Assembly (NCBI RefSeq): GCF_016921195.1
Contig: NZ_JAFGYF010000005.1
Span: forward strand, 248,001-312,000
Reading direction: 5' to 3'
DNA from: Cellulosimicrobium cellulans
GTDB taxonomy: Bacteria > Actinomycetota > Actinomycetes > Actinomycetales > Cellulomonadaceae
DNA: 64,000 nucleotides
Shown: positions 3,791-35,497 of the stretch, one piece after another
How the letters are laid out: each line of letters starts with the position of its first letter
Numbering within the stretch: position 1 is the stretch's first letter
Made by a program: the position numbers and the translations under genes
The notes under the pieces: generated by a model
Seen by the model: only the letters and a program-made list of their open reading frames with translations
What the model was told of the DNA's origin: nothing
The model's database searches: none

Positions 3791-3887
3791 GGTGGGTGGG
3801 GTGGTGGCGCCGGGTCGTGGCGGGCCTGGCGGGAGCCGCGAGGGACGAGCGGCGGATGGTAGACCCGGCGCCACCACCCCACCCACC
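3791..3887. repeat. Large hairpin element, copy 1 (25-bp stems, 47-nt loop)
   Basis: Perfect inverted repeat: left arm 3791-3815 (begins GGTGGGTGGGGTGG), right arm 3863-3887, loop 3816-3862. The loop contains a smaller GCCGC/GCGGC hairpin around GAGGGACGA. The same loop, in opposite orientation and with a single base change, is found at 35425-35471 between different but equally perfect arms. It lies just beyond the 21-bp repeat array that ends glgB. The G-rich arm (GGGTGGGTGGGG) could also form a G-quadruplex on the plus strand (inference). Confidence 0.9.
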
Positions 3888-3900
3888 ACCCAGGGTGACC

Positions 3901-3978
3901 AGACCTCTACGTCAGCAGGCCAGACCTCTACGTCAGCAGGCCAGACCTCTACCTCGGCAGACCAGGCCTCTACCTCGG
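3901..3978 (-). repeat. Array A of the 21-bp gene-end repeat (4 units)
   Basis: Units begin at 3901, 3922, 3943 and 3964 with an exact period of 21. The plus strand shows AGACCTCTACSTCRGCAG, so GAGGTAG or GACGTAG lies on the minus (glgB coding) strand. The innermost unit overlaps the end of glgB and contains its TAG stop. Units are more diverged from the consensus (GTCTGG instead of CCGTGG) than those of the other arrays. Confidence 0.9.
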
Positions 3979-6201
3979 CGACGGGACGAGGTACAACGCG
4001 CCGAGCGGGGGCAGGCGCAGGGTCGCGGAGTGCGCGCGCCCCTTCCACGGGACGGCCTCCGCCTCGACCTCGCCGAGGTTGCCGACGCCCGACCCGCCGT
4101 ACACCTCGGCGTCGGTGTTGAGCACCTCGCGCCACGTGCCGCCCGACGGCAGCGGGACGCGGTAGCCCTCGTGCGGCGTCCCGGCGAAGTTCACGACGAC
4201 GGCGACCTCGCTGCCGTCGCGCCCACGTCGCACGTAGGCGAGGACGTTGTGGTCGGCGTCGTCGGCGTCGAGCCACTCGAAGCCGGCGGGATCGTGGTCG
4301 AGCTCCCAGAGTGCGGGGGTCGCGCGGTAGAGCACGTTGAGGTCGCGCACGGCCCGCTGGACGCCCTGCCGCCCGGGGTCGGCGGCGAGGCCGTCCCAGT
4401 CGAGCGAGCGCCCCTCGTTCCACTCGGTGTGCTGCCCGATCTCGCTGCCCATGAAGAGGAGCTGCTTGCCGGGGTGCGACCACTGGTAGGCGAGGAACGC
4501 GCGGACGCCGGCTCGCTTCTGCCAGTCGTCGCCGGGCATCTTGCCGTAGAGCGACCCCTTGCCGTGCACGACCTCGTCGTGGCTGATGGGCAGCACGAAC
4601 TGCTCGGAGTAGGCGTAGACCATCGAGAAGGTGATCTCGTGGTGGTGGTAGCGCCGGTTGATGGGCTCCTCGGCGACGTAGCGCAGGGAGTCGTTCATCC
4701 AGCCCATGTTCCACTTGAGCCCGAACCCGAGGCCCCCGGCCGACGTCGGCCGGGTCACCCCGGGCCACGCCGTCGACTCCTCGGCGATCATCATGACGCC
4801 GGGCGTGCGCCGGTAGGCGGTGGCGTTGGCCTCCTGGAGGAACGCGATGGCCTCGAGGTTCTCGCGCCCGCCGTGCACGTTGGGGTGCCACTGGCCGGGG
4901 CCGCGCGAGTAGTCGAGGTAGAGCATGGACGCGACGGCGTCGACGCGCAGCGCGTCGACGTGGAACTCCTCGAGCCAGTACGTCGCGTTGGCGACGAGGA
5001 AGTTGCGGACCTCGTTGCGCCCGAAGTCGAACACGTACGTGCCCCAGTCGGGCTGCTCTCCGCGCAGCGGGTCGGCGTGCTCGTAGCACGGTGTGCCGTC
5101 GAACCGGGCCAGGGCCCACTCGTCGCGCGGGAAGTGCGCGGGGACCCAGTCGACGACGACGCCGATCCCCGCCGCGTGCAGGCGGTCGACGAGGTAGCGG
5201 AAGTCGTCGGGGTGGCCGAACCGTGACGTCGGCGCGTAGTAGCCGGTGACCTGGTAGCCCCACGACCCGCCGAACGGGTGCTCGGCGACGGGCAGGAGCT
5301 CGACGTGCGTGAAGCCCTGCTCGACGACGTACGCGGTGAGCTGCTCCGCGAGGTCGCGGTAGGACAGGCCCTGGCGCCACGAGCCGAGGTGCACCTCGTA
5401 GATGCTCAGCGGCTGCGTGTGCGGGTCGTGGGCGGCCCGCTCGGCGAGCCACGCGTCGTCGGACCACGTGAACTGCGACTCGACGACGACGCTCGCCGTC
5501 GCGGGCGGCACCTCGGTCGCCTTGGCGAGCGGGTCGGCCTTCTGCCGCCACGAGCCGTCGGGGCCGAGGATCTCGTACTTGTACCGCGCGCCCGTGCGCA
5601 CGCCCGGGACGAACAGTTCCCAGACGCCGCTCGAGCCGAGCGAGCGCATCGGGTGCGTCGCGCCCCAGCCGTTGAAGTCGCCGATGACGCGGACCGCGCG
5701 CGCGTTGGGCGCCCAGACGGCGAACGCGGTGCCCGTGGTGTCGCCGAGCGCGCTGGGGTAGGTGCGCACGTTCGCGCCGAGCGCGCGCCACAGCTCCTCG
5801 TGCCGGCCCTCCCGGATGAGGTGCAGGTCCACCTCGCCGAGAGTCGGCAGGAAGCGGTAGGGGTCGTCGGCGGTCGTGGCCTCGTGGCCGTAGCGCGCCC
5901 GGACGCGGTAGTCGGGGGCGTGCCGGGTGCCGTCGGGGTCCTGGTGCACCGGGACGACCGCGGCCCAGACCCCGTCCTGCTCGTGCGCGGCCGCGTGCTC
6001 GCCGTCGGTCGTGACGACGACGACCTCGTCGGCGAGGGGGCGCAGGACCCGGACGACGGCGCGCGCGTCGTCGGAGTCGGGCGCCAGGTGCGGGCCGAGC
6101 ACGGCGTGCGGGTCGAACGTGCGTCCGGCCGCCGCGGCGGCGAGCGCGTCCGGCAGCACGACGACGGGGAGTGGGGTGGGGGAGGCGGCGGACCCGGTCA
6201 T
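3970..6201 (-). CDS. glgB: 1,4-alpha-glucan branching enzyme (GH13)
   Basis: 743 residues, the usual length of actinobacterial GlgB. It cleaves an alpha-1,4 glucan and re-attaches the piece by an alpha-1,6 bond. An N-terminal extension precedes the CBM48-type domain (about 125-220, ending in [15 protein letters not shown]). The GH13 barrel has nucleophile Asp in [10 protein letters not shown] (about 418) and acid/base Glu in MIAEEST (about 473); [13 protein letters not shown] gives the transition-state-stabilising Asp. The C-terminal beta domain ends LYLVPSPR. Start ATG at 6201 precedes [14 protein letters not shown]; a longer reading has no support. Last gene of the glgE-treS-mak-glgB operon. 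Its TAG stop is contributed by the 21-bp repeat. Confidence 0.95.
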
Positions 6202-6278
6202 GGGGCAACCTTTCCACGTCCCGCGTGCCCCCACAGGACGGGCTCGCCGGACGGTCACGTTCGCGGTCGGGTCCGCTG

Positions 6279-7817
6279 TCAGGCGTCGCCCGCGAGCAGG
6301 CGGTCGACCGCGGCGAGCGGGATGGGCTCCCAGTCCGGGCGGTTGCGCGACTCGTAGACGACCTCGTAGAGCGCCTTGTCGAGCGTGAGCGCCCGTACCA
6401 GGGCCTCGGACGTCGCGCGGTCGACGCCGGCCGTGTCGGCCCGGTCGTAGGCGTCGAGGAACGCGGTGCGCGCCTGGACGGCCCATGCGGCGTCGCGGGC
6501 GCGCCCGACGGCGGCGGCGTAGTCGAACGAGCGCACGATCCCGGCGACGTCGCGCAGCGCGAGGTCCGGGCGCGTGCGCTCGGCGACCGGCCGCAAGGGC
6601 TCACCCTCGAAGTCGAGCACCTTCCAGCCGAACCGCCGCGCGTGCAGCACCTGGCCGAGGTGCAGGTCGCCGTGGACCGTCTGGAGCCGGGGGAGCGCAT
6701 CGGGGACGCGCGTGACGTTCGCGAGCCGCGCGGACGTGCGGTCCCAGAACGCGGCGACGTCCGCAGCGCGCCGTCCGAGCGCGCTGGAGGACGCGACGGC
6801 CTCGTCCGCACGCCGGCGCAGGTCCGCGACGAGCCAGCGCGCGTCGACGGGCGAACCGACGCCGAACGCGCGGCGGAGCGCGGCGTGCAGGTCGGCGAGC
6901 ACGCGCCCCAGGTCGGCCGCGAGGTCGGCGAACGAGGCGTCCTGCCCCGCGTAGGAGCACGCGAGGTCGAACCCGTCGCGCGCGCCCTCGACGAACTCGC
7001 TGAGGATCGCCAGGTGCGCGGAGCGGGGCGCCTCCGGGCCCGCCGGGGTGCCCGACGGCGGTGCCCCGCCCCCAGCGTTCGGCTCGTCCGGTCGGTGGTC
7101 CGCGTGCGGGTCGACGGCGGTCGGGTCGTCCGCTGCGTCCCACGTCACCTCGAGCCACGCGAGCGGCCGGGGCACCCCGCCCCAGCCCTGGGCCGCAAGA
7201 GCGCGGGGGATGGTCACGTCGGGGTTGGGCCCGATCGCGATGGCGCGCAGGACCTTGAGCATGCTCCCGCCGGCGACCCGCGGCAGCAGCACCGAGCTGT
7301 TCGACTGCTCGACGCTCAGCGCGCGTCCACCGGTGAGGTCGGCGTCGACCTCGGGGCGAGCGCCGCCCGGACTCGCGCCGTCCGGTGCCGTGCCGTGGCT
7401 CTCCCACTCCGCCACGGCCAGGAGGGCTGCCCAGCACGCGGGGTGCGCGGCGCCGTCGTGCACGACCCAGCCGGCGTCGTCGGCGCCTCGCGGGGCGAGC
7501 GTCCCGATCGGCGCCGCGCCGCCCGGCGTCAGGCCCACCGGCGAGGTCGCCGGCTCGAGCACGAGGGGCACCTGTACGACGAGGTCCACACCGTCCCCGA
7601 CGAGCCGCAGGAGGTGGAGCTCGACCCGGGTCCCCGGCCACGCGGCGTCGGGCCGGCCGGGTGCCGCGGCGGACGCCGGGACCTCGAGCACGAACGACAG
7701 CCACGGCACGTGGGTGACGGCGACCCCCTTGACCGGGTACCACCGCCGCGCGGGCAGCCAGGCGTCCAGGAGCGCCATGAGCTCCGCCGAGGGCGGGTCC
7801 GTCCGCCGTACCGTCAC
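6279..7817 (-). CDS. mak: Maltokinase (ATP: maltose 1-phosphotransferase)
   Basis: 512 residues. Makes maltose-1-phosphate, the donor for GlgE. N-terminal [12 protein letters not shown] is the typical maltokinase cap start. The kinase lobe has the Brenner-like loop [11 protein letters not shown] (about 382) and the metal-binding LDFEGEP (about 402). A low-complexity insert rich in Pro/Gly/Asp (about 215-260) is unusual. I chose GTG 7817 because GAGGAGG lies 5 nt upstream; a start 39 bp earlier is possible. It sits about 100 bp after treS. In many bacteria mak is fused to treS; here it is a separate gene. Confidence 0.92.
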
Positions 7818-7917
7818 GCGCGCCTCCTCGGTCAGGTTCGGCCCCCATGCCACCACGGCCGGGCCGCACCCGCCGGGTGAGGGCCGTGCCCGGGCACGGG
7901 CCGCGCGGCAACGGTGG

Positions 7918-9714
7918 TCACACCGACGGGTCCTCGACGACGAGCCAGTAGAAGTCGCGCGACCCCCACGTCATGACGACGCGCTCGTCGTCGTCGACCG
8001 CGGGGAAGCGTGCTCCGCCGAACACGTCCGTGAGCGTCGCGCCGGCGTGCCCGGGCACGTGCACCGAGGCCGAGCGCGCGGTCGCGGAGAGGTTCGCGAC
8101 GCACAGGATCGTCTCGGTGTCGGTGCGGCGCAGGAACGCGAGGATCGACTCGTTGTCGCACTCGAGCGCGACGAAGTCGCCCGTCCCGAACGCCTTGTGC
8201 CGGCGCCGGACCTTGAGCATCCCGTGCACCCAGTGCAGCAGGGACGTCGACTGCTCGAGCTGCGCCTCGACGTTGACGTAGCCGTAGTGGTGCACGAGCG
8301 ACTGCACGAGCGGCAGGTAGACCTTGCCCGGGTCGGCGGTCGAGAACCCGGCGTTGCGGTCGGGCGTCCACTGCATGGGGGTGCGCACGGCGTCGCGGTC
8401 GGGCAGCCAGATGTTGTCGCCCATCCCGATCTCGTCGCCGTAGTAGAGGCACGGGCTGCCCGGCAGGGAGAGCAGGAGCGCGTGCGCGAGCTCGACCTCC
8501 TTGCGCGAGTTGTCGAGCAGCGGGGCGAGCCGGCGGCGGATGCCGACGTTGGCGCGCATGCGCGGGTCGGGCGCGTACCACCCGTACATGGACGCGCGCT
8601 CCTCGGTGGACACCATCTCGAGCGTGAGCTCGTCGTGGTTGCGCAGGAACGTGCTCCACTGCGCGCCGGGCGGGATGTCGGGCGTGTCGGCGAGGATCTC
8701 GAGGATCTGGTTCGCGCGCTGGTCGCGGATCGCGTAGTAGATCCGGGGCATCACGGGGAAGTGGAAGCACATGTGGCACTCCGGCTCGTCCTCTGTGCCG
8801 AAGTAGTCCACGACCTCGCGCGGCCACTGGTTCGCCTCGGCGAGCAGGATGCGCCCCGGGAACTCGGCGTCGACCATGCGCCGCACGCGCCGCAGGAACT
8901 CGTGCGTCTGCGGCAGGTTCTCGCAGTTGGTGCCTTCGGCCTCGTAGAGGTAGGGCACCGCGTCGAGGCGGAACCCGTCGACGCCCATCTGCAGCCAGAA
9001 CCGCGCGACGTCGAGCATCGCGTCGGCGACGCGCGGGTTCTCGAAGTTGAGGTCGGGCTGGTGGGAGAAGAACCGGTGCCAAAAGAACTGGCGGCGCACG
9101 GGGTCGAACGTCCAGTTGGACGTCTCGGTGTCGACGAAGATGATGCGCGCGTCCTGGTAGCGCGAGTCGTCGTCGCTCCACACGTAGAAGTCGCCGTACG
9201 GGCCCTCGGGGTCGGCGCGCGACGCCTGGAACCAGGGGTGCTGGTCGCTCGTGTGGTTCATGACGAGGTCGATGACGACGCGCATCCCGCGCGCGTGCGC
9301 CTCGCTCACGAGCTCGGCGAAGTCGGACGTCGAGCCGTACTGCGGCGCGATCGCGGTGTAGTCGGAGACGTCGTAGCCGCCGTCGCGCAGGGGCGACGGG
9401 TAGAACGGCGGAAGCCACAGCGCGTCGATGCCGAGCCACTGCAGGTAGTCGAGGCGGTCGATGAGGCCCCGCAGGTCGCCCGTCCCGCTGCCGTCGGAGT
9501 CGGAGAACGCGCGGACGATCACCTCGTAGAACACGGCGGTGCGGTACCAGTCCGGGTCGTCCGACAGCCCGGGCCGCGCGTCGACCGGCGCGGCCGGCTG
9601 GCGTCGCGGCGGGAGCGCCGCGACGGGGACCGGCGCGGTGATGGGCGGCACGGGGGCGGGGCCGGCAGCGGGACCGCGTACGGGGACCGGTGCAGCATCG
9701 CGAGGGAACGTCAT
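7918..9714 (-). CDS. treS: Trehalose synthase / maltose alpha-D-glucosyltransferase (GH13)
   Basis: 598 residues. Interconverts trehalose and maltose. A Pro/Ala-rich N-terminal extension of about 45 residues ([16 protein letters not shown]) precedes the canonical [20 protein letters not shown]. Catalytic residues: nucleophile Asp in [10 protein letters not shown] (about 250), acid/base Glu in LLAEANQW (about 290), stabilising Asp in RNHDEL (about 359). No C-terminal maltokinase domain. Start ATG overlaps the glgE stop (ATGA), indicating coupled translation. With GlgE, Mak and GlgB it forms the complete GlgE route from trehalose to glucan (established pathway in Mycobacterium and Streptomyces). 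Confidence 0.96.
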
Positions 9715-11929: not shown

Positions 11930-11986
11930 CGTGCGTGTGACACCGCGAGGGTGTGCACCGGCCTCGGCCTGCGTAGTCTCGTCCCC

Positions 11987-14578: not shown

Positions 14579-14588
14579 CCCCTCCCGC

Positions 14589-14710
14589 GAGGTAGAACCC
14601 TGGTCGCGCGGGGTAGAACCGTGGTCGCGCGAGGTAGAACCGTGGTGGGCCGAGGTAGAACCGTGGTCGGCCGAGAATCCGGGACGGCCGGGGTAGAGCT
14701 CCGGTGAGGC
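14589..14710 (+). repeat. Array B of the 21-bp gene-end repeat (6 units)
   Basis: Units start at 14589, 14610, 14631 and 14652 with exact 21-bp spacing and core GGTAGAACC; a shortened 17-bp unit at 14673 and a diverged one at 14690 follow. GAGGTAG is on the plus strand, the coding strand of glgP, whose stop lies 10 bp upstream. Confidence 0.92.
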
Positions 14711-14713
14711 GCG

Positions 14714-14878: not shown

Positions 14879-15931
14879 ATGAACGAGTCATCGAACCTCT
14901 CCTCGCCCGCGGGGGCACCCGTTTCGACGGACACTCGCACGCGCGCGACCGCCCGGTCGCCCCGCCCACCAGGGCGCTACACCGCGGACACGACCGGCCC
15001 GCGCGGGGTCCCGGCGGCGATGCCGTACGACCGTCGTCGCCGTGCCGAGCTGGCGGCCCGTGCGCGCGACGGTGAGCTCGTGCGGGTGCGCCGCGGTGTC
15101 TATCTCCCGTCCCCGCACGCTGCCGCCCAGGCCCGGGAGCAGTGGTTGCTCGCCCAGGTGCGTGGTGTCGTCGAGAGCTTCACCACGCCGTACTGGGTGA
15201 GCCACGACACTGCGGCACTGCTCTGGGGGTGCTGGACCTGGCGGCTGCCGCCGTTCGTGCACCTGACCCAGCTCACGAACCCGCGGGTCGAGCGCGAACG
15301 CGACCCGATCGTCCGGCGGCACCGGACGGACCTCCCACCGCGCGACCGAGCACGCCTCGACGGCGTCCCGGTGACGAGCCTCGAGCGCACCGTCGTCGAC
15401 TGCGCCCGCTCGCTGCCCCTGGAGCGCAGCCTCGTCGTCGTGGACTCGGCGCTACGTCTGGGCGCCGACCGGCATGTCGTCGAGCAGGTGCTCGAGGAGT
15501 CGCGGGGCAAGCGCGGTGTGGTCCGCGCGCGTCGCGCACTGGAGCTCGCGGACCCGGCATCGGAGTCGCCGGGCGAGACGCTGGTCCGGTTGGCCGCAAC
15601 ACTCGGCGGGCTCCCGACGCCACGACCACAGGTTCCGGTCGCCACCGCCCGCGGCCGCTACGTCCTCGATCTCGCCTGGATAGACGCCCGCGTCGCGGTC
15701 GAGTTCGACGGCGCTGTGAAGTACTCCGGTGGGCCGTACGGGGACCCGGCCGCGACGCGACGCGCCCAGGACGTCAGGGAGGCGGCACTCGTCGCCGCAG
15801 GCTGGACGGTCGTGCGGTTCACCTGGGACGACCTCGGCGACCCGGTCGCGGTCGGGTGCCGCCTGGCAGAGACACGCCGGCTCGCGCTCCGACGCCAGGC
15901 ATCCCGGAGGGTGGCACCGGCGCCGAGGTAG
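14879..15931 (+). CDS. AbiEi-antitoxin-like / DUF559 endonuclease-fold protein
   Basis: 350 residues. The first half has an AbiEi-type winged-helix-like start (RRRAELAARARDGELVRVRRGVYLP) and a middle with PPRDRARLDGVPVTSLERTVVD. The C-terminal part resembles the Vsr-like DUF559 domain: VLDLAWIDARVAVEFDG with Lys/Tyr following, and VVRFTWDDL, giving the E/D-x-D pattern of a PD-(D/E)XK fold. Such proteins are common and multi-copy in actinobacteria; their role is not established. ATG 14879 was chosen because the conserved part starts shortly after. No toxin partner is adjacent. The TAG stop lies inside the first unit of repeat array C. Confidence 0.75.
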   Translation: MNESSNLSSPAGAPVSTDTRTRATARSPRPPGRYTADTTGPRGVPAAMPYDRRRRAELAARARDGELVRVRRGVYLPSPHAAAQAREQWLLAQVRGVVESFTTPYWVSHDTAALLWGCWTWRLPPFVHLTQLTNPRVERERDPIVRRHRTDLPPRDRARLDGVPVTSLERTVVDCARSLPLERSLVVVDSALRLGADRHVVEQVLEESRGKRGVVRARRALELADPASESPGETLVRLAATLGGLPTPRPQVPVATARGRYVLDLAWIDARVAVEFDGAVKYSGGPYGDPAATRRAQDVREAALVAAGWTVVRFTWDDLGDPVAVGCRLAETRRLALRRQASRRVAPAPR

Positions 15932-16008
15932 AACGTTGGTCACGCGAGGTAGAACCCCAGTCACGCGAGGTAGAACCCCGGTCACGCGAGGTAGGACGCC
16001 GGTTGGGC
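15925..16008 (+). repeat. Array C of the 21-bp gene-end repeat (4 units)
   Basis: Units at 15925, 15946, 15967 and 15988, exact period 21, core GAGGTAGAACC with variable centre and a GGTCACGC end. The first unit contributes the TAG stop of the AbiEi/DUF559-like gene. Confidence 0.92.
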
Positions 16009-16098
16009 GGAGAAGAAGGTCGGTGGATCCAGCGGAGCGAGCCGCGCTCGGTCCGGAGAAGCCACCGTTCTGTCGCGGACGACCAGCGTGCTCCTTCG

Positions 16099-16161
16099 TC
16101 GGACCACGGTTCCACCTCGCGTGACCGGGGTTCTACCTCGGCGGACCACAGTTCTACCTGG
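16099..16161 (-). repeat. Array D of the 21-bp gene-end repeat (3 units)
   Basis: Units at 16099, 16120 and 16141 in inverse orientation (GGTTCTACCTCG on the plus strand). The last unit contains the TAG stop of the minus-strand membrane-protein gene. Arrays C and D face each other across 90 bp, so a transcript through both could fold into a long imperfect stem. Confidence 0.9.
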
Positions 16162-17425
16162 GCGCGGTGGCGGGTTCGTCGGCGGGCGCCCGGGAGGCCC
16201 TGTCGAGGAGGGTGAGGTAGCGGGAGCGGGTGCGGACGACGTCGGCGAGCTGGGTCTCGATGCCGTCGACGAACTCCGCGCGGTAGACCGCGTCGACCTG
16301 GACGGAGATCGCGTAGTAGAGCCCGGTGAACGTCGCGATCGCGACGGAGACGCGCAGGAGCGTCTGCGTGACGACGAGGTCCGCCCCGCCGACGCCGCCC
16401 CCGCCCGCCAGAGAGATCGTCTGCTGCCACGTGCCGCCGTCGACGTCCCACAGCGCCATGACCTCGGGCGTGACCGTGAGGGTCCCGAGCGCCATGAAGA
16501 ACACGCCCATGCCGAGGCTCACGACGAGCACCTGCAGGAGCTGGCTGGTCGCGATCATCGTCGCGAGGTTCGCCGTCTGCCCGCGGCTGAAGCGCGTCGC
16601 GCTCTCGTGGTCGGGCAGCCTCGCCGCCGTCTCCGCGAGCGCCTCGCGCGCCTCGGCCGGCGAGCGCAGCGCGACGAACAGCACGACCAGGAGCGCGAAG
16701 AAGGCACCGAGCGCGATGTCCGCGACGCCGTGCGTGCGGTCGAACACCTGCCAGACCTCGGCGTTGTAGAAGAGGACCAGGGAGAACACGAGCAGGAGCG
16801 GGAGGAGGCGCACGAGCCGGAGGAGCGCGGCACCGAGCTCGTCGGTGACGCGCGCGAGCCCCCACCACAGCGACGACAGCACGCCGTACCCGACGACCAC
16901 GCGCACGAGGCCCAGCAGGACGAGGTTGCCGACGACGGTGAGCAACGCGTCGCCCCACTGCCCGCCGAACACGAGGGGCAGCAGCGCGGGCACGAGCACG
17001 AAGAACGCGAGCTCGGGCACGCCGACCGACTGGGGGAGGGTCGACCACGGGCGTCCGCGGAGCACGTTGAGGCCGGCGTACGCGGCCGCGACGATCGCGG
17101 CGCCCCCCAGGAGTGCGAGCGCGTTGGCCCAGGCCGGCCAGCCGGACCGGATGGCGCCGCTCAGCTCGGCGAGCAGCACGACGAGCAGGAACGGTGCCGA
17201 CCGCCCGAACACGTCACGGTCCACGGAGTGCCCCTGGACCAGCAGCGGGAGCCCGTTGCGGCGGAAGACGCGCTCGCACGCGGCGATGTCGGGCGGTGCG
17301 GCCCCCGGCCCCCGGCCGGGCTGCTCGACGACGCCGGGCCCGGCCGGTTCGTCGTGCCCGACCGGTCCCGTGCCCGACGCGAGGTCGGCTCGTCCGGATC
17401 GCGACGCGTCGTCGTGCACGCTCAT
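16154..17425 (-). CDS. Polytopic membrane protein of unknown function
   Basis: 423 residues. After a hydrophilic Gly/Pro/Asp-rich N-terminus (about 45 residues) come ACERVFRRNGLPLLVQGHS and then at least six to eight hydrophobic segments (APFLLVVLLAELSGAI; ALALLGGAAIVAAAYAG; ELAFFVLVPALLPLVFG; LLTVVGNLVLLGLVRVVVG; LLPLLLVFSLVLF; GAFFALLVVLFVAL; LLQVLVVSLGMGVFFMALG; TFTGLYYAI). I recognise no catalytic motif. Start ATG 17425 precedes MSVHDDASRSG. Ends ATAPR with a TAG lying in repeat array D. The FAD-dehydrogenase gene is upstream on the same strand, but array E separates them, so co-transcription is doubtful. Confidence 0.7.
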   Translation of the reverse strand: MSVHDDASRSGRADLASGTGPVGHDEPAGPGVVEQPGRGPGAAPPDIAACERVFRRNGLPLLVQGHSVDRDVFGRSAPFLLVVLLAELSGAIRSGWPAWANALALLGGAAIVAAAYAGLNVLRGRPWSTLPQSVGVPELAFFVLVPALLPLVFGGQWGDALLTVVGNLVLLGLVRVVVGYGVLSSLWWGLARVTDELGAALLRLVRLLPLLLVFSLVLFYNAEVWQVFDRTHGVADIALGAFFALLVVLFVALRSPAEAREALAETAARLPDHESATRFSRGQTANLATMIATSQLLQVLVVSLGMGVFFMALGTLTVTPEVMALWDVDGGTWQQTISLAGGGGVGGADLVVTQTLLRVSVAIATFTGLYYAISVQVDAVYRAEFVDGIETQLADVVRTRSRYLTLLDRASRAPADEPATAPR

Positions 17426-17485
17426 GCTCGGTGACCCTACCGGCCGTGGCACCACGCACGACGGACGCCCACGGTCGGTTCTCAG

Positions 17486-17590
17486 CGACCACGGCTCTAC
17501 CTCGCGCGACCACGGTTCTACCTCGCGCGACCACGGCTCTACCTCGCGCGACCGCGGCTCTACCTCGCGCCAGCAGGCTTCCGCTTCGTG
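17486..17590 (-). repeat. Array E of the 21-bp gene-end repeat (4 units plus a decayed one)
   Basis: Units at 17486, 17507, 17528 and 17549 are nearly identical (CGACCACGGCTCTACCTCG on the plus strand); a decayed copy follows at 17570. GAGGTAG is on the minus strand, the coding strand of the FAD-dehydrogenase gene that ends 12 bp away at 17602. This is the most uniform array, so it may be the youngest. Confidence 0.92.
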
Positions 17591-17601
17591 CGACCTGTGG
17601 G

Positions 17602-27633: not shown

Positions 27634-27847
27634 CGAGATGCCACTTCCCCTGTCGGTGGCTGGACGGACTCGTCCTCGGCACGCTTCCGTCCCGCGGCGA
27701 CGTGTGGCGCGCGACGGCGGTCCTGCGACCGGGACGAGCGCCCGGCGACGGCCGGGCGCAGACCTCCCACAACCTAGCGCTTCTCGTCGGGAAGTCCAGC
27801 GCCGCCCACTCCTCGGACCGCGAGCGCCGCGACGCTTCGTAGACTGG

Positions 27848-29137
27848 GTGACCGTGACCCACCCTTCCGGCCCTGTCCCCGCGGCGGCCGCGTACCTCGA
27901 CCACGCCGCCACGACGCCGCTGTCCGCGGCGGCGCGCGAGGCGTTCGTCGACGAGCTGTCGCGCACCGGCAACCCGTCGTCCCTGCACGCGGCGGGCCGC
28001 GCCGCCCGACGCACGGTCGAGGAGGCGCGCGAGTCGGTCGCCGCGGCGCTCGACGCCCGCCCGAGCGAGGTCGTGTTCACCGCGGGGGGCACCGAGGCGG
28101 ACAACCTCGCGATCAAGGGCCTGTTCTGGGGCCGGCGCACGACGGACCCGCGCCGGCTGCGGATCGTCGTCTCTGCGGTCGAGCACCACGCGGTGCTCGA
28201 CCCCGCGTTCTGGATGGCCGAGCACGCGGGCGCGGAGATCGTGCTGCTGCCCGTCGACGGCGAGGGGCGCGTGGACCTCGCGGCGCTGCGCGCGGAGATC
28301 GCGGAGCACGCGGACGAGATCGCGCTGATCTCCGTCATGTGGGCCAACAACGAGGTGGGCACGCTCCAGCCGGTGCAGGAGGTCGTCCAGCTCGCGCGCC
28401 CGCACGGCATCCCGGTGCACTCCGACGCGGTGCAGGCGGTCGGGCAGGTCCCCGTCGACTTCGCGGCGAGCGGTCTCGACGCGATGACCGTCTCCGGGCA
28501 CAAGCTCGGCGGCCCCGTCGGCGTCGGCGCGCTCGTCGCGCGCCGCGACGCGCCGCTCACGCCCGTGCTGCACGGCGGCGGGCAGGAGCGCGGCGTGCGC
28601 TCCGGCACGCTCGACGCGCCCGCGATCCGCGCGTTCGGCGTCGCCGTCGCGGAGGCCGTCGCACGCCGCGAGGAGCGCGCCGCCCACCTCGGCACGCTGC
28701 GCGACGAGCTCGTCGCGGGCGTGCGCGAGCGCGTCCCCGACGCCGTGCTCAGCGGCCCTGAGCCGAGGTCCGGTGACCGTGACGCGGCGCGGCTGCCCGG
28801 CAACGCGCACTTCACGTTCCCGGGGGCCGAGGGCGACTCGCTCCTCTACCTGCTCGACTCCGCGGGCGTGCAGGCCTCGACGGGCTCGGCGTGCCAGGCC
28901 GGCGTGCCGCAGCCGTCGCACGTGCTCCTCGCGATGGGCGTGCCGGAGCAGGACGCGCGCGGCGCGCTGCGCTTCTCGCTCGGGTCGACGTCCACGCCCG
29001 ACGACGTCGCGCGCCTGCTCGACGCCCTGCCGGCCGCGGTCGAGCGCGCGCGGGCCGCAGGCCTCGCGTCGTCACCGACGCGCACGCCGGCCTCGACCCG
29101 CACCGCGGTCCCGACCCGCGCGGGGGGTGCCGCGTGA
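27848..29137 (+). CDS. iscS: Cysteine desulfurase (IscS/NifS type)
   Basis: 429 residues. Takes sulfur from cysteine onto an active-site Cys for tRNA thiolation and Fe-S use. PLP Lys in VSGHKLGGP (about 219), PLP-stacking His in [10 protein letters not shown], catalytic Cys in STGSACQAG (about 348). C-terminal tail is Ala/Thr/Arg-rich and unconserved. GTG at 27848 or 27854; a TAGACT box at 27840-27845 suggests a leaderless transcript that would favour 27854. The stop overlaps the GTG of mnmA by four bases: sulfur donor and tRNA thiolase are co-translated, the conserved actinobacterial order. Confidence 0.93.
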
Positions 29138-30324
29138 GGGTGCTCGCCGCCATGTCCGGCGGCGTCGACTCGGCCGTCGCCGCGGCGCTCGCGGTCGAGG
29201 CGGGCCACGAGGTCGTGGGCGTGCACATGGCGCTGTCGCGCAACCGCGACCAGTTCCGTACCGGGTCGCGCGGGTGCTGCTCCATCGAGGACGCGGGGGA
29301 CGCGCGGCGCGCGGCCGACGTGCTCGGCATCCCGTACTACGTGTGGGACCTCTCGGAGCGGTTCGAGGACACGGTCGTGGCCGACTTCCTCGCGGAGTAC
29401 GAGGCGGGCCGCACGCCCAACCCGTGCGTGCGCTGCAACGAGCACATCAAGTTCGAGGCGCTGCTCGACAAGGCGACCGCGCTCGGCTTCGACGCCGTCG
29501 CGACGGGCCACTACGCGCGCGTCGTGACGCGCGAGGAGGCCGACGTGTCCGCCCCGGGCGGGGTGCGCACGGTGCGCGAGCTCCACCGCTCGCCGAACAC
29601 GGCCAAGGACCAGTCGTACGTCCTCGCGGTCATGGGTCCCGAGCGCCTCGCCCGAGCGGTGTTCCCCCTCGGGGACTTCGCGTCGAAGGACGAGGTGCGC
29701 GCCGAGGCCGCGCGACGCGGGCTGTCCGTGTCCGCGAAGCCCGACTCGTACGACATCTGCTTCGTCGCCGACGGCGACACCCAGGGCTTCCTGCGCGACC
29801 GCCTCGGCGCGCGGCCGGGCGAGATCGTCGACGCCGAGGGGACCGTGCTCGGCCGGCACGACGGCGCGTACGCGTACACGGTCGGCCAGCGCAAGGGCCT
29901 GGGCATCGACCGTCCCGCGCCCGACGGCCGGCCCCGGTACGTGCTCGACGTGCAGCCCGCGAGCAACCGCGTGGTCGTCGGCCCGGCCGAGCTGCTGAGC
30001 GTCGACCGGATCGAGGCCGGCGCGGCGGTCTGGTTCGACGACGCGCGCCCGGCGGCGGGGGAGCGGGCCGACGTCGAGGTGCAGGTCCGCGCGCACGGCG
30101 CCCCGGTCGCGGCTCGGGTCCGGGCCGTCGGTGACGCGATGGAGGTCGAGCTCACGGGGACGCCGCTGCGGGGCGTCGCCGCCGGGCAGTCGCTCGTCGT
30201 CTACGCCGGCCCGCGGGTTCTCGGTCAGGCGACCGTGGACCGGGCCTACCGGGCCGGGGCGGGGCCGGCCGCCACGGCGGCTACCGCCCAGCCCGCTCAG
30301 CCGACGCCGACGGGCGCCGGGTGA
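29134..30324 (+). CDS. mnmA: tRNA-specific 2-thiouridylase
   Basis: 396 residues. Adds sulfur to U34 of Lys/Glu/Gln tRNAs using ATP. PP-loop [15 protein letters not shown] (about 5-19); catalytic Cys in [14 protein letters not shown] (about 97-104) and the partner Cys in [14 protein letters not shown] (about 210). The C-terminal beta barrel is present with a long Ala/Thr/Pro tail. The GTG start overlaps the end of the cysteine desulfurase gene. Its last 28 bp overlap the 3' end of the antisense SnoaL-like gene. Confidence 0.95.
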
Positions 30325-30725
30325 GCGAGCGCGCGCACGAGCGCGGACTCGTCACGCACGCACCAGTGCTCGGCCTCCCGGCCGTCCGCGAAGCGCAGCA
30401 CGTGCATCTCGCGCACCCGGAACCGGCGCCCCGTCGGGGCGACGCCGCGGAAGAACCCGGTGTGCCGCGCGCTGAGCTCGACGTGCAGCGCGACGAGGTC
30501 GCCCTCGGCGACGGCGTGCAGGACCTCGACGTGCTGGTCCTCGAAGGCCTCGTCGTACCAGTGCATCGTCGCGAGGAGGGCGTCGGCGCCGCCCTCGCAG
30601 CCGGGCGACCCGTCGTGGTTGCGGAACCCGGGGGCCAGCAGCGTCGCGAGCGCGTCGCCGTGGTTGCCGGGGATCGCCCGCGTGTGCACGGCGACCGCCG
30701 TGGCCTTGTTCTCGTGCGTGCCCAT
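30297..30725 (-). CDS. SnoaL-like / ester cyclase family protein
   Basis: 142 residues. NTF2-like fold: [28 protein letters not shown]... [41 protein letters not shown]... [28 protein letters not shown] is the SnoaL-type pattern with His and Asp in the pocket. Substrate unknown. ATG 30725 is preceded by GGAAGG. It points against its neighbours and its 3' end overlaps the end of mnmA. Confidence 0.8.
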
Positions 30726-30886
30726 GTCGGAGCCCTTCCGCCAGGCGGCCGCGCGGCCCCCGGACCCCGGCGGGGTCGCGGCACGGCTCGGTTTCCCAGT
30801 GTGCTCCTGGAGAGAGGTGGACGGCACGTGGTTCGTGACGAGAGGTCGGGCGGCGCCCGGGCCGAGGGCTCGCGCGGGGATGCGGC

Positions 30887-31936
30887 ATGACCGCGGTGAG
30901 CGGCCTCGGGCCGTGGCCCGGCGGCGAGGGCGCGGACGTGCTGGAGGCGCAGCTCACGGTGCTCGGCGACCTCGCGGAGGTCCCGACCGGCGTGCGCGGC
31001 GTACCGTTCCTCGTCCAGCTCCCGGGGCGCGGCCCCGGCGCGGACGCGACCGGGCGGACCGCCGCGCTGCTGCCCGGCCTCCCCGTCGAGCTGGGGCCGC
31101 ACGGGTGGAAGCTCGCGGACCACGGGGGTGCGGACCTGCGCCGCGCCGAGTCCGTCCTGCGTGCGGACCTGGAGGCGCTCGCCATCGCGGGCGCGGGGTA
31201 CTCCGGGCCGCTCGCCGTGACCGTGACCGGTCCCTGGACGCTCGCCGCGGACGTGTACCTCGCGCGCGGCGACCGCGTGCTGTCCGACCCGGGCGCCGTG
31301 CGCGAGGTGGTCCAGGCGCTCGCCGTGGGCGTGGGCGAGCACGTCGCCCAGGTGCGCCGGCAGGTGCCGGGGGCGGACGTCGTCGTGCAGGTGGACGAGC
31401 CGCTGCTCGCCCAGGTCGGGGCGGGCGTGCTCCCGTCGTTCTCGGGCTACTCGCGGTTGCGTGCGGTCCCCGGCCCGGACCTCGTGGACGGGCTGCGGCC
31501 CGTGCTCGACGCCGCCCGGGACGCGTCGGCGTCGACGGTCGTCCACGTGGGGCCCGCATGGGTCGGCGTGGCGCCGGCCGTGCTCGCGGGGACGGACGCC
31601 GTCGGCCTCGCGCTCGGCGCGTGGGACGAGCGGCTGTGGGAGACCGTCGCCCGGGCCGTCGAGCGGGGCGTCGGCCTGTGGGCCGAGCTCCCGCCCGCGA
31701 AGGTCTCCCAGTGCGCCGGGCCCGCGCTGGGCGAGCTCGCCGACCTGGTCAGTGTGCCGTGGCGCCGCATCGGGCTCCCGCTCGCGGCGCTCGACGACGT
31801 CACGCTCCTGGGCGCCGCGCGCACGGCCGGGGGAGGCCCGGGCCGCGGCGTCGACGGCACTCCTGACGAGCACCGCGCGCTGCTCGCGAACCTCGGCCGC
31901 GTCGCCGACGTCCTGGCCGAGCGCGCCCACGCCTGA
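30887..31936 (+). CDS. MetE-like (UROD/MetE fold) protein, likely non-catalytic methionine synthase homologue
   Basis: 349 residues, about half the length of MetE. TGPWTLAADVYLARGDRVLSDPGAVREVV and VVVQVDEPLLAQVGAG (QxDEP) are the MetE C-domain motifs. The zinc-binding His-x-Cys is not evident, except HVGPAWVG in place of HxCYG. A gene of this kind sits near mnmA in Mycobacterium (Rv3015c neighbourhood), so position supports orthology. Probable role: unknown methyltransferase-like protein. ATG 30887. Confidence 0.8.
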   Translation: MTAVSGLGPWPGGEGADVLEAQLTVLGDLAEVPTGVRGVPFLVQLPGRGPGADATGRTAALLPGLPVELGPHGWKLADHGGADLRRAESVLRADLEALAIAGAGYSGPLAVTVTGPWTLAADVYLARGDRVLSDPGAVREVVQALAVGVGEHVAQVRRQVPGADVVVQVDEPLLAQVGAGVLPSFSGYSRLRAVPGPDLVDGLRPVLDAARDASASTVVHVGPAWVGVAPAVLAGTDAVGLALGAWDERLWETVARAVERGVGLWAELPPAKVSQCAGPALGELADLVSVPWRRIGLPLAALDDVTLLGAARTAGGGPGRGVDGTPDEHRALLANLGRVADVLAERAHA

Positions 31937-32035
31937 GCAGCACCTGGACGCACGCTCGGCGCTTCCCGCGCGCGCCTCCGCATGCGTACGCTTGACCGTC
32001 GTCCCCCCTCGTCCCCCCACCCGTGAAGGACCCCC

Positions 32036-32800
32036 ATGCCCGTCCTGCGAGCCGTGCTGTTCGACCTCGACGGCGTGCTCACGCCGACCGCCGAGCTCCA
32101 CATGCGCGCCTGGGAACGGCTGTTCGCGCCCTACTGCGCCGCGCACGGCCTCGCCCCGTACACCGCCGCGGACTACTTCGCGTCGATCGACGGCAAGCCC
32201 CGGTACGACGGCGTCGCGACGTTCCTCGCGTCGCGCGGCGTCGAGCTGCCGCGCGGCGAGGTCACGGACGCGCCCGGCGAGGGGACGGTGTGCGCGCTCG
32301 GCAACCGCAAGGACGAGATCGTCAACCGCATGTTCGTCGACGAGGGCATCACGCCCTACCCCGGCTCGGTGCGCTTCCTCGACGCCGTGACCGAGGCGGG
32401 CGCCGCCGTCGCGGTCGTGTCGTCGTCGCGCAACACGCCCGCGGTCCTCGCGGCGGCGGGCCTGACCGACCGGTTCCCGGTCGTCGTCGACGGGAACGTC
32501 GCGGCCCGCGAGCACATCGCCGGCAAGCCGGCTCCCGACACGTACCTGTACGCGGCGCAGCTCCTCGGCGTCCCGGCCGCCGAGGCTGTCGTCGTGGAGG
32601 ACGCGCTGTCGGGCGTCCGGGCCGGCGCGGCCGGGGACTTCGGGCTCGTGCTCGGCGTCGACCGCGGCGTGGGCGCGGACGCGCTGCGAGCGCACGGGGC
32701 CGACGTCGTCGTTCCCGATCTCGGCGAGCTCGACGCGACGGTCCTCGACCGGCCGCGCGCCGCCGTCGCTGCTCCGGCCGACGAGGAGGCGGGCGCGTGA
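32036..32800 (+). CDS. HAD hydrolase, beta-phosphoglucomutase-like
   Basis: 254 residues. VLFDLDGVLTPTAELH holds the nucleophile and second Asp (motif I); VVSSSRNTP motif II; GKPAPDTYL motif III Lys; VVVEDALSGVRAG motif IV. Resembles the beta-phosphoglucomutases and sugar phosphatases that accompany GH65 phosphorylases. Its TGA overlaps the GTG of the GH65 gene, so beta-glucose-1-phosphate from phosphorolysis would be turned into glucose-6-phosphate (inference from pair). ATG 32036 follows GTGAAGGACCCC. Confidence 0.88.
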   Translation: MPVLRAVLFDLDGVLTPTAELHMRAWERLFAPYCAAHGLAPYTAADYFASIDGKPRYDGVATFLASRGVELPRGEVTDAPGEGTVCALGNRKDEIVNRMFVDEGITPYPGSVRFLDAVTEAGAAVAVVSSSRNTPAVLAAAGLTDRFPVVVDGNVAAREHIAGKPAPDTYLYAAQLLGVPAAEAVVVEDALSGVRAGAAGDFGLVLGVDRGVGADALRAHGADVVVPDLGELDATVLDRPRAAVAAPADEEAGA

Positions 32801-35274
32801 TCCGCAAGACCGCCGACGAGCAGAGCACCGTGGACCGGCTGCGCTTCCCGGCCGAGCCGTGGCGGCTCGTCGAGTCGCAGTTCTCCGCCGAGGACCTCGG
32901 GGTGACCGAGACGCTGTTCGCCGTCGCGAACGGCTACCTCGGCATGCGCGGCAACGTCGAGGAGGGGCGGGAGTCCCACTCGCACGGCACGTTCGTCAAC
33001 GGGTTCCACGAGACCTGGTCGATCCGGCACGCCGAGGAGGCGTACGGGTTCGCGCGCGTCGGGCAGACCATCGTCAACGTCCCGGACGCGAAGGTCATCC
33101 GGCTGTACGTCGACGACGAGCCGCTCCTGCTGCCCGTCGCGGACCTCGTGGACTACGAGCGGTCGCTCGACCTGCGCGACGGGGTGCTACGTCGCGAGCT
33201 GCTGTGGCGCACGCCGTCGGGCAAGCGCGTGCAGGTCCGCTCCGAGCGCATGGTGTCGTTCGTCGAGCGGCACCTGGCGATCATGACGTTCGAGGTCACG
33301 CTGCTCGACGCCGCGGCGCCCGTCGCGATCTCCTCGCAGGTGCTCAACCGGCAGGACGGCCAGGACGAGTACCACGTGCGCGCCGCGTCGCTCGGCGAAG
33401 GGTTCGACCCGCGCAAGACCGACCAGTTCTCGGGGCGCGTGCTGCAGCCGCAGTCCCAGTGGGGCGACGACGAGCGGCTCGTGCTCTCCTACCGCGCGAC
33501 GAACTCGGGCATGACGCTCGCGGTCGCGGCGGACGACCTGCTCGAGACCGAGAACGAGTGGGACGTCCGGACGCAGGTCGACGAGGACCTCGCCAAGCAC
33601 GTGTTCCGCATCCACGCGGAGCCCGGCCGGCCCATCCGGCTCACCAAGCTCGTCGCGTACCACACGTCGCGCGGCGTACCGTCGCGCGAGCTCGTCGACC
33701 GCTGTCGCCGCACGCTCGACCGCGCGCGCGAGACCGGCGTCGAGGCCCAGCTCGCGCTCCAGCGCGGGTGGCTCGACGACTTCTGGGCGCGCTCCGACGT
33801 CGAGATCCCCGGCCAGCCGGGCATCCAGCAGGCGGTGCGCTGGAACCTGTTCCAGCTCGCCCAGGCGACGGCCCGCGCGGAGGGCAACGGCGTCCCCGCC
33901 AAGGGCCTGACGGGCTCCGGGTACAGCGGGCACTACTTCTGGGACACCGAGATCTACGTCCTGCCCTTCCTGACCTACACGAGCCCCCGGTACGCGCGCA
34001 ACGCGCTGCGCTTCCGCTACCAGATGCTCGACGCGGCCCGGCGCCGCGCGGCCGAGCTGTCGCAGAAGGGCGCGCTCTTCCCCTGGCGCACGATCAACGG
34101 CGAGGAGGCGTCCGCCTACTACGCGGCGGGCACCGCGCAGTACCACATCGACGCGGACGTCAGCTACGCGCTCGTGCAGTACGTGCGCGCGACGGGCGAC
34201 ACCGACTTCCTGCGCCGCGAGGGCGTGGACATCCTCGTCGAGACCGCGCGCATGTGGGAGGACCTCGGGTTCTGGCGCGCCAACGGCGACGACAACTTCC
34301 ACATCCACGGCGTCACCGGCCCCGACGAGTACACGACCGTCGTCAACGACAACCTCTTCACGAACGTCATGGCGCGGTTCAACCTGCGCGCGGCGGCGTT
34401 CGTCGTCGAGCGCATGAAGGCCGAGCACCCCGAGGACTACAAGCGCCTCGTCGACCGGCTCGGGCTCGGCGCGTACGAGGCGGCGGAGTGGGTCCGCGCG
34501 GCCGACCACATGTCGATCCCGTACGCCGAGAGCATCGGGATCCACCCGCAGGACTCGCACTTCCTCGAGCGCGAGATCTGGGACCTCGCGCACACCCCCG
34601 CGAACAAGCGGCCCCTCCTGCTGCACTACCACCCGCTCGTCATCTACCGCTACCAGGTGCTCAAGCAGGCGGACGTCGTGCTCGCGCTGTTCCTCCAGGG
34701 CCAGCACTTCACGGCGGAGGAGAAGCTCGCCGACTTCGAGTACTACGACCCGCTGACCACGGGCGACTCGACGCTGTCCGGCGTCGTGCAGTCGATCGTC
34801 GCGGCCGAGGTCGGGTACCACGAGCTCGCGCTCGAGTACTTCGTGTCGTCGCTGTTCGTCGACCTGGCGAACCTCCACGCCAACGCGGCCGACGGCGTGC
34901 ACGTCGCGTCAGCGGGCGGCACGTGGTCCGCGCTCGCGTGCGGGTTCGGCGGCATGCGCGACTCCGACGGCGAGCTGAGCTTCGACCCGCGCCTGCCGCA
35001 GGAGTGGGAGTCGCTGACGTTCCGCGTCCAGTGGAACGGCTCGCGCCTGCGCGTCACGGTGCACCCCGACGCGATCGAGCTCGACGCCGAGACCGGCGAC
35101 GGCGCGCAGGTCACGGTGCGCGGCGAGAAGGTCAAGGTCGTCCCGGGCGACGTCGTACGCGTCCCGCTCGACGGCCAGGGCCCCGTGCGTCCCGGCCGCC
35201 CGAGCCTGCGCGCGCTGTCCGGCAACCGCCGCGACGACGGCACCCTCATCACCGCGACGGTCCCGCACTCCTGA
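32797..35274 (+). CDS. GH65 glycoside phosphorylase (trehalose/kojibiose/maltose type)
   Basis: 825 residues. N-terminal beta-sandwich (VTETLFAVANGYLGMRGNVEEG), then the (alpha/alpha)6 barrel with FWDTEIYVLPF, the catalytic acid Glu in VTGPDEYTTVVNDN (about 510) and phosphate-site LLHYHPLVIYRYQVLKQADVVLA. It splits an alpha-glucoside with phosphate to beta-glucose-1-phosphate. The exact disaccharide cannot be told; trehalose is plausible given the other genes. The GTG start is coupled to the HAD gene. Followed after 9 bp by repeat array F and hairpin copy 2. Confidence 0.92.
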   Translation: MIRKTADEQSTVDRLRFPAEPWRLVESQFSAEDLGVTETLFAVANGYLGMRGNVEEGRESHSHGTFVNGFHETWSIRHAEEAYGFARVGQTIVNVPDAKVIRLYVDDEPLLLPVADLVDYERSLDLRDGVLRRELLWRTPSGKRVQVRSERMVSFVERHLAIMTFEVTLLDAAAPVAISSQVLNRQDGQDEYHVRAASLGEGFDPRKTDQFSGRVLQPQSQWGDDERLVLSYRATNSGMTLAVAADDLLETENEWDVRTQVDEDLAKHVFRIHAEPGRPIRLTKLVAYHTSRGVPSRELVDRCRRTLDRARETGVEAQLALQRGWLDDFWARSDVEIPGQPGIQQAVRWNLFQLAQATARAEGNGVPAKGLTGSGYSGHYFWDTEIYVLPFLTYTSPRYARNALRFRYQMLDAARRRAAELSQKGALFPWRTINGEEASAYYAAGTAQYHIDADVSYALVQYVRATGDTDFLRREGVDILVETARMWEDLGFWRANGDDNFHIHGVTGPDEYTTVVNDNLFTNVMARFNLRAAAFVVERMKAEHPEDYKRLVDRLGLGAYEAAEWVRAADHMSIPYAESIGIHPQDSHFLEREIWDLAHTPANKRPLLLHYHPLVIYRYQVLKQADVVLALFLQGQHFTAEEKLADFEYYDPLTTGDSTLSGVVQSIVAAEVGYHELALEYFVSSLFVDLANLHANAADGVHVASAGGTWSALACGFGGMRDSDGELSFDPRLPQEWESLTFRVQWNGSRLRVTVHPDAIELDAETGDGAQVTVRGEKVKVVPGDVVRVPLDGQGPVRPGRPSLRALSGNRRDDGTLITATVPHS

Positions 35275-35283
35275 CCTCGCGCC

Positions 35284-35367
35284 GAGGGAGAACCCTGGCC
35301 TGCCGAAGTAGGACCGTGGTCGCGCGAGGTAGAACCGTGGTTGCGCGAGGTAGAGCCGTGGTTGTTT
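35284..35367 (+). repeat. Array F of the 21-bp gene-end repeat (4 units)
   Basis: Units at 35284, 35305, 35326 and 35347, exact period 21. The outer two are diverged (GAGGGAGAACCC, GAAGTAGGACC); the third is consensus and the fourth changes AACC to GCC. GAGGTAG is on the coding strand of the GH65 gene, which ends 9 bp upstream. Confidence 0.92.
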
Positions 35368-35398
35368 CCTGGCCGACGGCGGTCTGGTCGCCTGGGGT

Positions 35399-35497
35399 GG
35401 TCGGGGTGGGTGGTGGTGCCGCGTCTACCATCCGCCGCTCGTTCCTCGCGGCTCCCGCCAGGCCCGCCACGACGCGGCACCACCACCCACCCCGACC
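35399..35497. repeat. Large hairpin element, copy 2 (26-bp stems, 47-nt loop)
   Basis: Left arm 35399-35424, right arm 35472-35497, perfectly complementary; loop 35425-35471. The loop is the reverse complement of the loop at 3816-3862 except for one base, which falls in the unpaired tip. Stems differ from copy 1 at six of 25 positions, each matched by a compensating change. Relative to the upstream gene and its repeat array, the loop has the same orientation in both copies. Confidence 0.92.

Follow-up and report, generated by a model that had tools for sequence, protein, structure and literature searches.

A family of gene-end hairpins with free stems and a conserved internal loop in Cellulosimicrobium and other actinomycetes

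Two hairpins in a 64,000-nt stretch of the Cellulosimicrobium cellulans genome (NCBI RefSeq assembly GCF_016921195.1, contig NZ_JAFGYF010000005.1, positions 248,001 to 312,000 of the forward strand; the whole of this stretch is referred to as the window) belong to an apparently undescribed family of dispersed elements of ~95 nt, which lie at gene ends, mostly in one orientation, and in which an internal loop is conserved while the sequence of the paired arms is free. The existence of this family is firm. As to its mechanism, we infer from sequence comparison, and tentatively, a host-maintained hairpin, copied to gene ends, in which the purine-rich strand would show the conserved internal loop to a putative factor and so act as a barrier at the gene end, a reading that we regard as plausible, if short of probable. 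Genomes and loci are cited where needed by the numbers given to them in the analysis (G and L, respectively).

Copy number and distribution

The initial annotation, made from the window sequence, had described a two-copy hairpin and had proposed a covariance-model search of the genome and genus, in which a lack of further copies, with stem differences left uncompensated in relatives, would count against it. A covariance model built from 38 chosen copies gave 48 copies in the own genome (E ≤ 0.01), so that the count of two did not stand, and 12–85 copies per genome in 17 of 17 Cellulosimicrobium genomes (its own included); the pattern itself held, with many copies and with pairing kept in relatives. 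The own genome is a 4.58-Mb draft of 23 contigs, in which BLAST with the conserved core recovered 40 copies (besides one self-match of an arm). On the practical side, many copies sit at contig ends of this draft (17 of the 40 at most 100 nt away), and the hairpin probably breaks its assembly.

A pattern scan of the taxonomic family was positive in 24 of 200 genomes and 4 of 25 genera, 17 of the 24 genomes being Cellulosimicrobium, with the reversed-pattern control giving 0 in every listed row. Among the matches listed (80 of at least 102 stretches), Isoptericola sp. BMS4 and two Arsenicicoccus species carry the core. In an order scan 4 of 39 genomes were positive (own included), one with 14 copies, and in a class scan with the model 9 of 394 genomes (own included) carried copies, the misses in the latter meaning little because 11 candidates were scored per genome (the 48 copies of the own genome became 11). 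A few further families are also represented among the carriers. Records titled Sphaerisporangium cinnabarinum ATCC 31213 (QAPD01; L126, L146, L169) carry the element and match a genome grouped with the genus (G008), the title being probably misassigned. In G401, from another family, copies were observed as same-strand pairs 139–214 bp apart (L256, L262, L267, L270), and at L057/L105 and L181 the 3′ half of the element is partially repeated in tandem.

No match to the element was found in plasmids or phages, or in viral contigs searched with one exact pattern, and a plasmid, phage or viral origin was rejected on these grounds. Likewise, no Rfam family reached its gathering score in the window or in six related loci, the best sub-threshold match by score being a microRNA model (24.8 bits against a cut-off of 83), and a known Rfam RNA was rejected; this agrees, as far as tested, with the earlier statement that no named element has this shape. 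No description of a comparable element was found in the literature, within the collection searched.

A conserved internal loop between covarying helices

The outer stem of the element is free in sequence, with a median length of 25 bp including mismatches, and encloses a loop mostly of 45–49 nt. The loop contains a conserved asymmetric internal loop, the two sides of which read GUGG-NN-GGGYCUGGCGGGA and GGAUGGUA along the purine-rich strand, an inner stem that is again free in sequence (27 types by script, mostly paired), and a cap that on the same strand is usually CGAG-GNA-CGAG. In many Cellulosimicrobium copies the purine strand reads ..GGATGGTAG.., with GGTT, GGCT or GGCGG in other clades. 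Across the 38 chosen copies a 24-pair structure is paired in 91% of cells, both sides have changed at 18 of 19 outer pairs, and the covariation score is 0.443 as compared with 0.098 for shuffles and 0.080–0.133 for slid controls.

A larger set of 238 copies was drawn mostly from Cellulosimicrobium and in part from outside it, and includes orthologues and paralogues, its members being unique by upstream context alone. Of the 87 model hits, 86 entered this set, the weakest being left out (28.3 bits, L367 1469–1580, plus strand), and 168 of the 238 copies passed a filter demanding the cap CTCGTNCCTCG. Once 10 copies with a stem score below 12 had been dropped, the arms of the 228 copies with a clear stem fell into 29 sequence clusters, with 135 stems perfect and 93 bearing mismatches. 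The N position of the cap is T in 125 copies, C in 56, G in 43 and A in 2, partly by construction through the cap-containing filter; among the model-found copies listed, those that deviate from CTCGTNCCTCG are at L312, L314 and L364. In distant model-found copies the cap is CGAG-CGAAG-CGAG (L254), CGAG-CUUG-CGAG (L266) or a long hairpin (L264) and the internal loop persists, and one class, from another family, combines the cap hairpin with an internal loop that differs (L257, L259, L263, L268, L271). Tandem sheared G.A pairs, GNA triloops and CUUG loops are all stable motifs.

The copy number, the covariation and the paired changes seen in orthologues (below) support the original proposal that there is selection on, or copying that maintains, the fold as well as the loop; copying, with arms made complementary by templated correction, stands beside selection as a rather improbable cause. 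A G-quadruplex that had been suggested in the GGGTGGGTGGGG arm is unlikely to matter, and was rejected as a key feature, because the arms of many other copies are unrelated.

The two hairpins of the window

Both hairpins were recovered in the window by an inverted-repeat script at 3791–3887 and 35399–35497, as first reported, and no other perfect inverted repeats of at least 17 bp with a 3–99 nt spacer were found in the 64 kb. Their stems are indeed perfect and measure 26 and 27 bp around a loop of 45 nt, in place of the 25–26 bp and 47 nt given initially, the innermost pair having been counted differently. With copy 1 reverse-complemented the loops are identical at 44 of 45 positions (46 of 47 in the earlier count), and the sole difference (C/T) sits at the tip of an inner hairpin (GCCGC/GCGGC), as had been noticed. 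The compensation described for the stems is likewise borne out, since 6 of 26 common arm positions differ and the same six differ in the opposite arm, and so is the opposite orientation of the copies, the C-rich loop being on the plus strand in copy 2 and on the minus strand in copy 1. Against dinucleotide shuffles the folding z was −7.5 (RNA, plus strand) and −6.2 (RNA, minus strand) for copy 1 and −8.6 (DNA, plus strand) for copy 2, with 0 of 200 shuffles folding as well as the real copy in each of these three tests. The features concerned are the following.

3791..3816, minus strand: copy 1 arm of the outer stem, 3′ when read along the C-rich strand, perfect 26-bp inverted repeat
3817..3861, minus strand (C-rich): copy 1 conserved core, 45 nt, with inner GCCGC/GCGGC hairpin; 44 of 45 positions as in copy 2, kept across 38 aligned copies
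3862..3887, minus strand: copy 1 arm of the outer stem, 5′ when read along the C-rich strand, perfect 26-bp inverted repeat
3899..3973, minus strand: 21-nt tandem array in the interval between glgB stop codon and copy 1; such arrays stand beside some hairpin copies, not all
3970..6486, minus strand: glgB-like gene (1,4-alpha-glucan branching enzyme; Pfam GlgB_N, CBM_48, Alpha-amylase, Alpha-amylase_C), with copy 1 after its 3′ end
32023..35274, plus strand: glycoside hydrolase family 65 (GH65) gene (Pfam Glyco_hydro_65m, 65N, 65C), with copy 2 after its 3′ end
35283..35364, plus strand: 21-nt tandem array in the interval between GH65 stop codon and copy 2
35399..35425, plus strand: copy 2 outer stem 5′ arm, perfect 27-bp inverted repeat
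35426..35470, plus strand (C-rich): copy 2 conserved core, 45 nt, from the alignment of 38 copies; 44 of 45 positions as in copy 1
35471..35497, plus strand: copy 2 outer stem 3′ arm, perfect 27-bp inverted repeat
35984..36085, minus strand: inverted 21-nt array 3′ of copy 2, with the same layout in L401

Position and orientation at gene ends

The context of each copy was described by the direction of its left and right genes along the C-rich strand, genes being taken from our codon-usage caller (a cruder caller in one earlier step). Both neighbours were called for 208 copies, omitting 21 inside a called frame and 9 without a neighbour, and their contexts were +/− in 84, +/+ in 80, −/− in 39 and −/+ in 5. 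In 164 of these 208 copies, as a raw count, the gene that ends immediately upstream has the C-rich strand as its sense strand. The median distance from the stem base to the left gene was 65.5–112 nt (+/−, +/+ and −/− contexts) and that to the right gene 179–248 nt. Where the C-rich strand is sense, the medians of the two contexts put the stem base 65.5 and 82 nt beyond the stop codon. Outside the genus the motif was obtained from 22 of 27 loci tried (L065, L084 and L085, genus members among 30 loci, being omitted), with contexts of +/+ in 10, +/− in 6 and −/− in 1, two copies lying inside a frame and three being incomplete; the orientation rule looks stricter there. Two Arsenicicoccus copies stand just 3′ of an IF-2 gene.

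Which strand folds

Stem mismatches were counted as events, each combination of cluster, position and type being counted once, by which shared ancestry is reduced and not removed. On the C-rich strand A.C was found 57 times as against 6 for G.T (p 1.6e-11), together with T.C 45, C.C 16, G.A 4 and G.G 4, and another clustering of the stems gave A.C 31 against G.T 5. Within the inner 14 bp the ratio of C-type to G-type events was 38:8 (p 9e-6) and that of A.C to G.T 27:3. The tilt was present in the +/− (48:3), +/+ (36:6) and −/− (22:2) contexts and in copies inside frames (16:2), the −/+ context giving no events. On the purine-rich strand the same mismatches are G.U, G.A and G.G, which are better tolerated kinds. 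The one subfamily serving as control, the largest (38 and 48 copies), showed no such tilt in its unpaired flanks, where G>A changes numbered 2+6 (8) and C>T changes 5+7 (12). The excess of A.C over G.T mismatches on the C-rich strand therefore suggests that the purine-rich strand is the folded one, as RNA or DNA, an assignment of the folding strand that is supported but not proven.

Maintenance, gain and loss at orthologous sites

The site of copy 1 was found with the same flanks in 10 species. Among the inner 20 pairs of these orthologues, three had changed on both sides to a new Watson–Crick pair and four showed one-sided changes, so that pairing is maintained in place with one-sided lapses; one of the latter, a C.A in G010, resembles the intermediate of a paired change in G008 (C-G). 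The G015 row was excluded from this comparison as chimeric, its element (L121, near 7099) combining a 3′ arm like that of copy 1 with a 5′ arm of another type, and may reflect recombination through the loop or misassembly.

Elsewhere, copies were gained and lost at orthologous gene ends. The site between the large- and small-chain genes of ribonucleotide reductase (by Pfam; which we take to be nrdE and nrdF) was compared across the genus, with G014 left out. Six Cellulosimicrobium carry the element there with three unrelated stem types (L203/L204, L205/L208, L206/L207), and eight genus members are without its loop and its stem. By eye, seven of these eight (L209–L215) show another, short-looped hairpin with the stem GTCGGCCAC / GTGGCCGAC. 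Since the site without the element is also without the stem, an origin in which the loop alone entered an existing hairpin was rejected. In two species the site has a 269-aa open reading frame with a NUMOD3 motif (L217 677–1486 and L218 672–1481, both minus strand), the start of which is presumably GIY-YIG-like. The hairpin element itself occupies this site in six genomes of two other genera (L089–L094).

At the L061 site, a copy in C-sense was found in G000 and a copy in purine-sense with an unrelated stem in G011 and G015, G005 and G014 having a loop-less palindrome inside the flanks of the repeat (L383, L384) and the rest another hairpin, a truncated repeat or nothing. Among ten loci at the L014 site, G000 and G012 have the element, G002 an apparent remnant, and G006, G007 and G010 inverted 21-nt arrays without the element, the remaining four showing less or another hairpin; here too a loop-less palindrome (L403) lies within the repeat's own flanks. 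Because these flanks are present, the loop-less palindromes of both sites are better read as tip deletions, and would be scars left by deletion of a hairpin tip; the tip-deleted and chimeric loci come from draft assemblies and could include assembly errors. Presence/absence polymorphism of the kind known from miniature inverted-repeat transposable elements (MITEs) is thus found at the ribonucleotide reductase, L061 and L014 sites. By eye, the last two are too diverged to place the ends of the element to the base, and no clean target-site duplication could be established.

A second type of hairpin, whose stem of ~18 bp varies around a different conserved loop (like YCGTCCGCGYCGCGTGACGC), was observed at gene ends at the L061 site (L386–L391) and the L014 site (L410), with 0–6 pattern hits per genome as against 0–1 per strand for the reversed control.

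In the largest subfamily, loci of the own genome and of relatives have ~250–280 bp in common, hairpin included, at 84–95% identity, and this subfamily has therefore spread by copying. Y1_Tnp (PF01797) was found in 0 of the 17 genus genomes, as compared with 6 of 14 control genomes, and the integron integrase TIGR02249 was over its cut-off in 0 of 17, the best score being 77.7 bits against 265.

Favoured reading and rival explanations

A role at gene ends is favoured because of the orientation rule, the maintenance in place and the scarcity of divergent contexts, and an ordinary sense-strand terminator is disfavoured because of the strand tilt and the absence of a T-run. We infer from this a barrier, a partner factor and a mode of spread of the following kind. 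The folding molecule would be the purine-rich strand, either as RNA transcribed against the upstream gene, its source being a convergent neighbour or antisense or divergent transcription, or as single-stranded DNA. The folded strand would present the conserved internal loop to a putative protein, and the resulting barrier at the gene end would end or process transcripts entering the gene backwards. The repeat would be copied to further gene ends, by a route that in the genus is not a Pfam-detectable Y1/RAYT transposase.

Several points weigh against this reading. The orientation is reversed in 39 of the 208 copies, the context counts are raw ones, uncorrected for a genome-wide baseline, and the copies, with orthologues and paralogues among them, are not independent. 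By the energy model the covarying inner hairpin is expected on the C-rich strand and not on the purine-rich one, and the mismatch tilt could stem from C being retained on the sense strand for some different reason. A sigma-70 consensus scan recognised no promoter for the purine-rich strand near either window copy, nor does a T-run follow the hairpin at either (0 at both), which therefore are not canonical intrinsic terminators. Conservation of the cap is in part an outcome of sampling, many copies having been detected or retained with cap-containing patterns, and the cap is not essential, because in L264 the whole of it is swapped for a long hairpin.

An alternative, somewhat unlikely in our view, is a mobile single-stranded DNA element, in which the folded purine-rich strand is the substrate of a putative structure-specific recombinase or transposase, like that of the repetitive extragenic palindromes (REPs) with RAYTs or of attC; gene ends and orientation would then mark harmless insertion spots, and pairing would be kept since folded copies alone are mobilised. 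Dispersed copies with ~250–280 bp in common at 84–95% identity, their presence and absence at orthologous sites, the single gene end occupied in C-sense in G000 and in purine-sense with an unrelated stem in G011 and G015, and the tilt of mismatches to one strand are all consistent with mobility. However, the position and stem of copy 1 are kept in 10 species with compensated changes and the ribonucleotide reductase site is kept in three genera, both of which argue for a host function in place; nor was Y1_Tnp found in any of the 17 genomes (control 6 of 14), an integron integrase over the cut-off, or a copy in plasmids, phages or viral contigs (the last for one exact pattern), and a clean target-site duplication could not be established.

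The orientation of the copies could instead reflect a hairpin in the 3′ end of the sense mRNA, where the C-rich strand would serve as a terminator, a 3′ stabiliser or a C-rich loop for the loading of Rho. This would account for that strand being sense for the upstream gene in 164 of 208 copies at medians of 65.5 and 82 nt past the stop codon, for the C-rich loop and for the inner hairpin predicted there by the energy model. It is nevertheless unlikely, as the mismatches A.C, C.U and C.C are destabilising on the C-rich strand and G.U is nearly absent (57 against 6), no U-run is present at the window copies, and a Rho site would not need as many invariant loop positions as are seen in the 38 copies. 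Less likely still is that the arms are kept complementary without selection, being re-copied by template-switching in replication as the repeat spreads by recombination: the stem is perfect in 135 of 228 copies, few one-sided G.U states occur and the apparent tip-deleted palindromes at two sites (L383, L384; L403) suggest that the hairpin forms in DNA, but such correction leaves the strand tilt of the mismatches, the internal loop held across families, the cap swaps and the orientation rule unexplained, mismatches persist uncorrected in 93 of 228 stems, and the C.A of G010 beside the C-G of G008 at the copy-1 site looks like a paired change made in two steps.

Relation to known elements

To our knowledge, the known bacterial interspersed hairpins considered here are copies of one sequence. 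Families of the ERIC, BOX and MITE type have the arm sequence in common between copies. The present element is like them in being non-coding, dispersed, palindromic and intergenic, and unlike them, with their common arms, in having arms that fall into 29 clusters.

Among REPs, the GTAG and CGTC types are short palindromes in families, the GTAG type occurring with RAYTs and the CGTC type apparently without a dedicated transposase and with stems of 8–9 bp and loops of 4–5 (PMC3733652). The element is like REP/BIME repeats with RAYTs in being interspersed, extragenic and hairpin-forming with dozens of copies, and in the RAYT case in single-stranded folding. It is unlike REPs, where the palindrome sequence is kept per family, in its free stem and kept internal loop, and unlike the CGTC type in its stems of ~25 bp and loops mostly of 45–49 nt. 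A GTAG or CGTC tag at the palindrome end was not found, the purine-strand sequence varying between clades. Membership of the REP/RAYT group was rejected in view of the lack of Y1_Tnp (0 of 17) and of 29 stem clusters in place of a common consensus palindrome.

Sites of the attC type are placed after a reading frame in a fixed orientation and have R boxes, GTTRRRY, at the stem base. PMC2727003 describes a bottom strand that folds and is read by structure, with variable terminal structures. The element is like attC as a sequence-poor, structure-kept hairpin after a reading frame with a variable terminal structure, and may be like it in the folding of one strand, to which the mismatch tilt points; it is unlike attC, with its boxes at the stem base, in that the conserved part is an internal loop and the hairpins are gained and lost without a gene. 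R boxes of attC type were not seen, the stem bases differing from cluster to cluster (by eye; no box search was run), and integron membership was rejected with no integron integrase over the cut-off (0 of 17). The element resembles REPs and attC in principle and lacks the defining features of each.

Structured RNAs (Rfam, and the portion of the survey PMC8632094 that was available) offer a further likeness, a conserved loop between covarying helices, the nearest being the HRC-8-4 motif, described there as a terminator stem that carries conserved nucleotides in its tip and ends in a U-run. Unlike HRC-8-4, the window hairpins have no T-run. In the main text of that survey no word begins with ‘actino’.

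Unlike single-sequence repeats, the family leaves its paired sequence free and conserves an internal loop and a cap, and does so from one actinomycete family to another, at gene ends and with one orientation predominating. Should the assignment of the folding strand be right, it would offer a sequence-based handle on the working strand of an intergenic hairpin and would point to a factor that reads the loop. A wider proposition, which we hold to be doubtful, is that actinomycetes have a class of structure-read sites marking gene 3′ ends, in which a protein would recognise, on one strand folded as antisense RNA or single-stranded DNA, the internal loop between two helices of any sequence. Such sites, if true, would represent an attC-like principle without integrons, or a dedicated barrier to antisense transcription, that has spread as a repeat.

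Associated 21-nt arrays

The 21-nt arrays (unit like CGAGGTAGARCCGTGGTYGCG) adjoin many hairpin copies, yet are also found without a hairpin. Elsewhere in the window they occur at 14586–14669, 15924–16003, 16096–16164 and 17485–17595, some of them as inverted pairs, and an inverted repeat at 15947–16159 (78 nt, 73% complementary) overlaps inverted 21-nt arrays.

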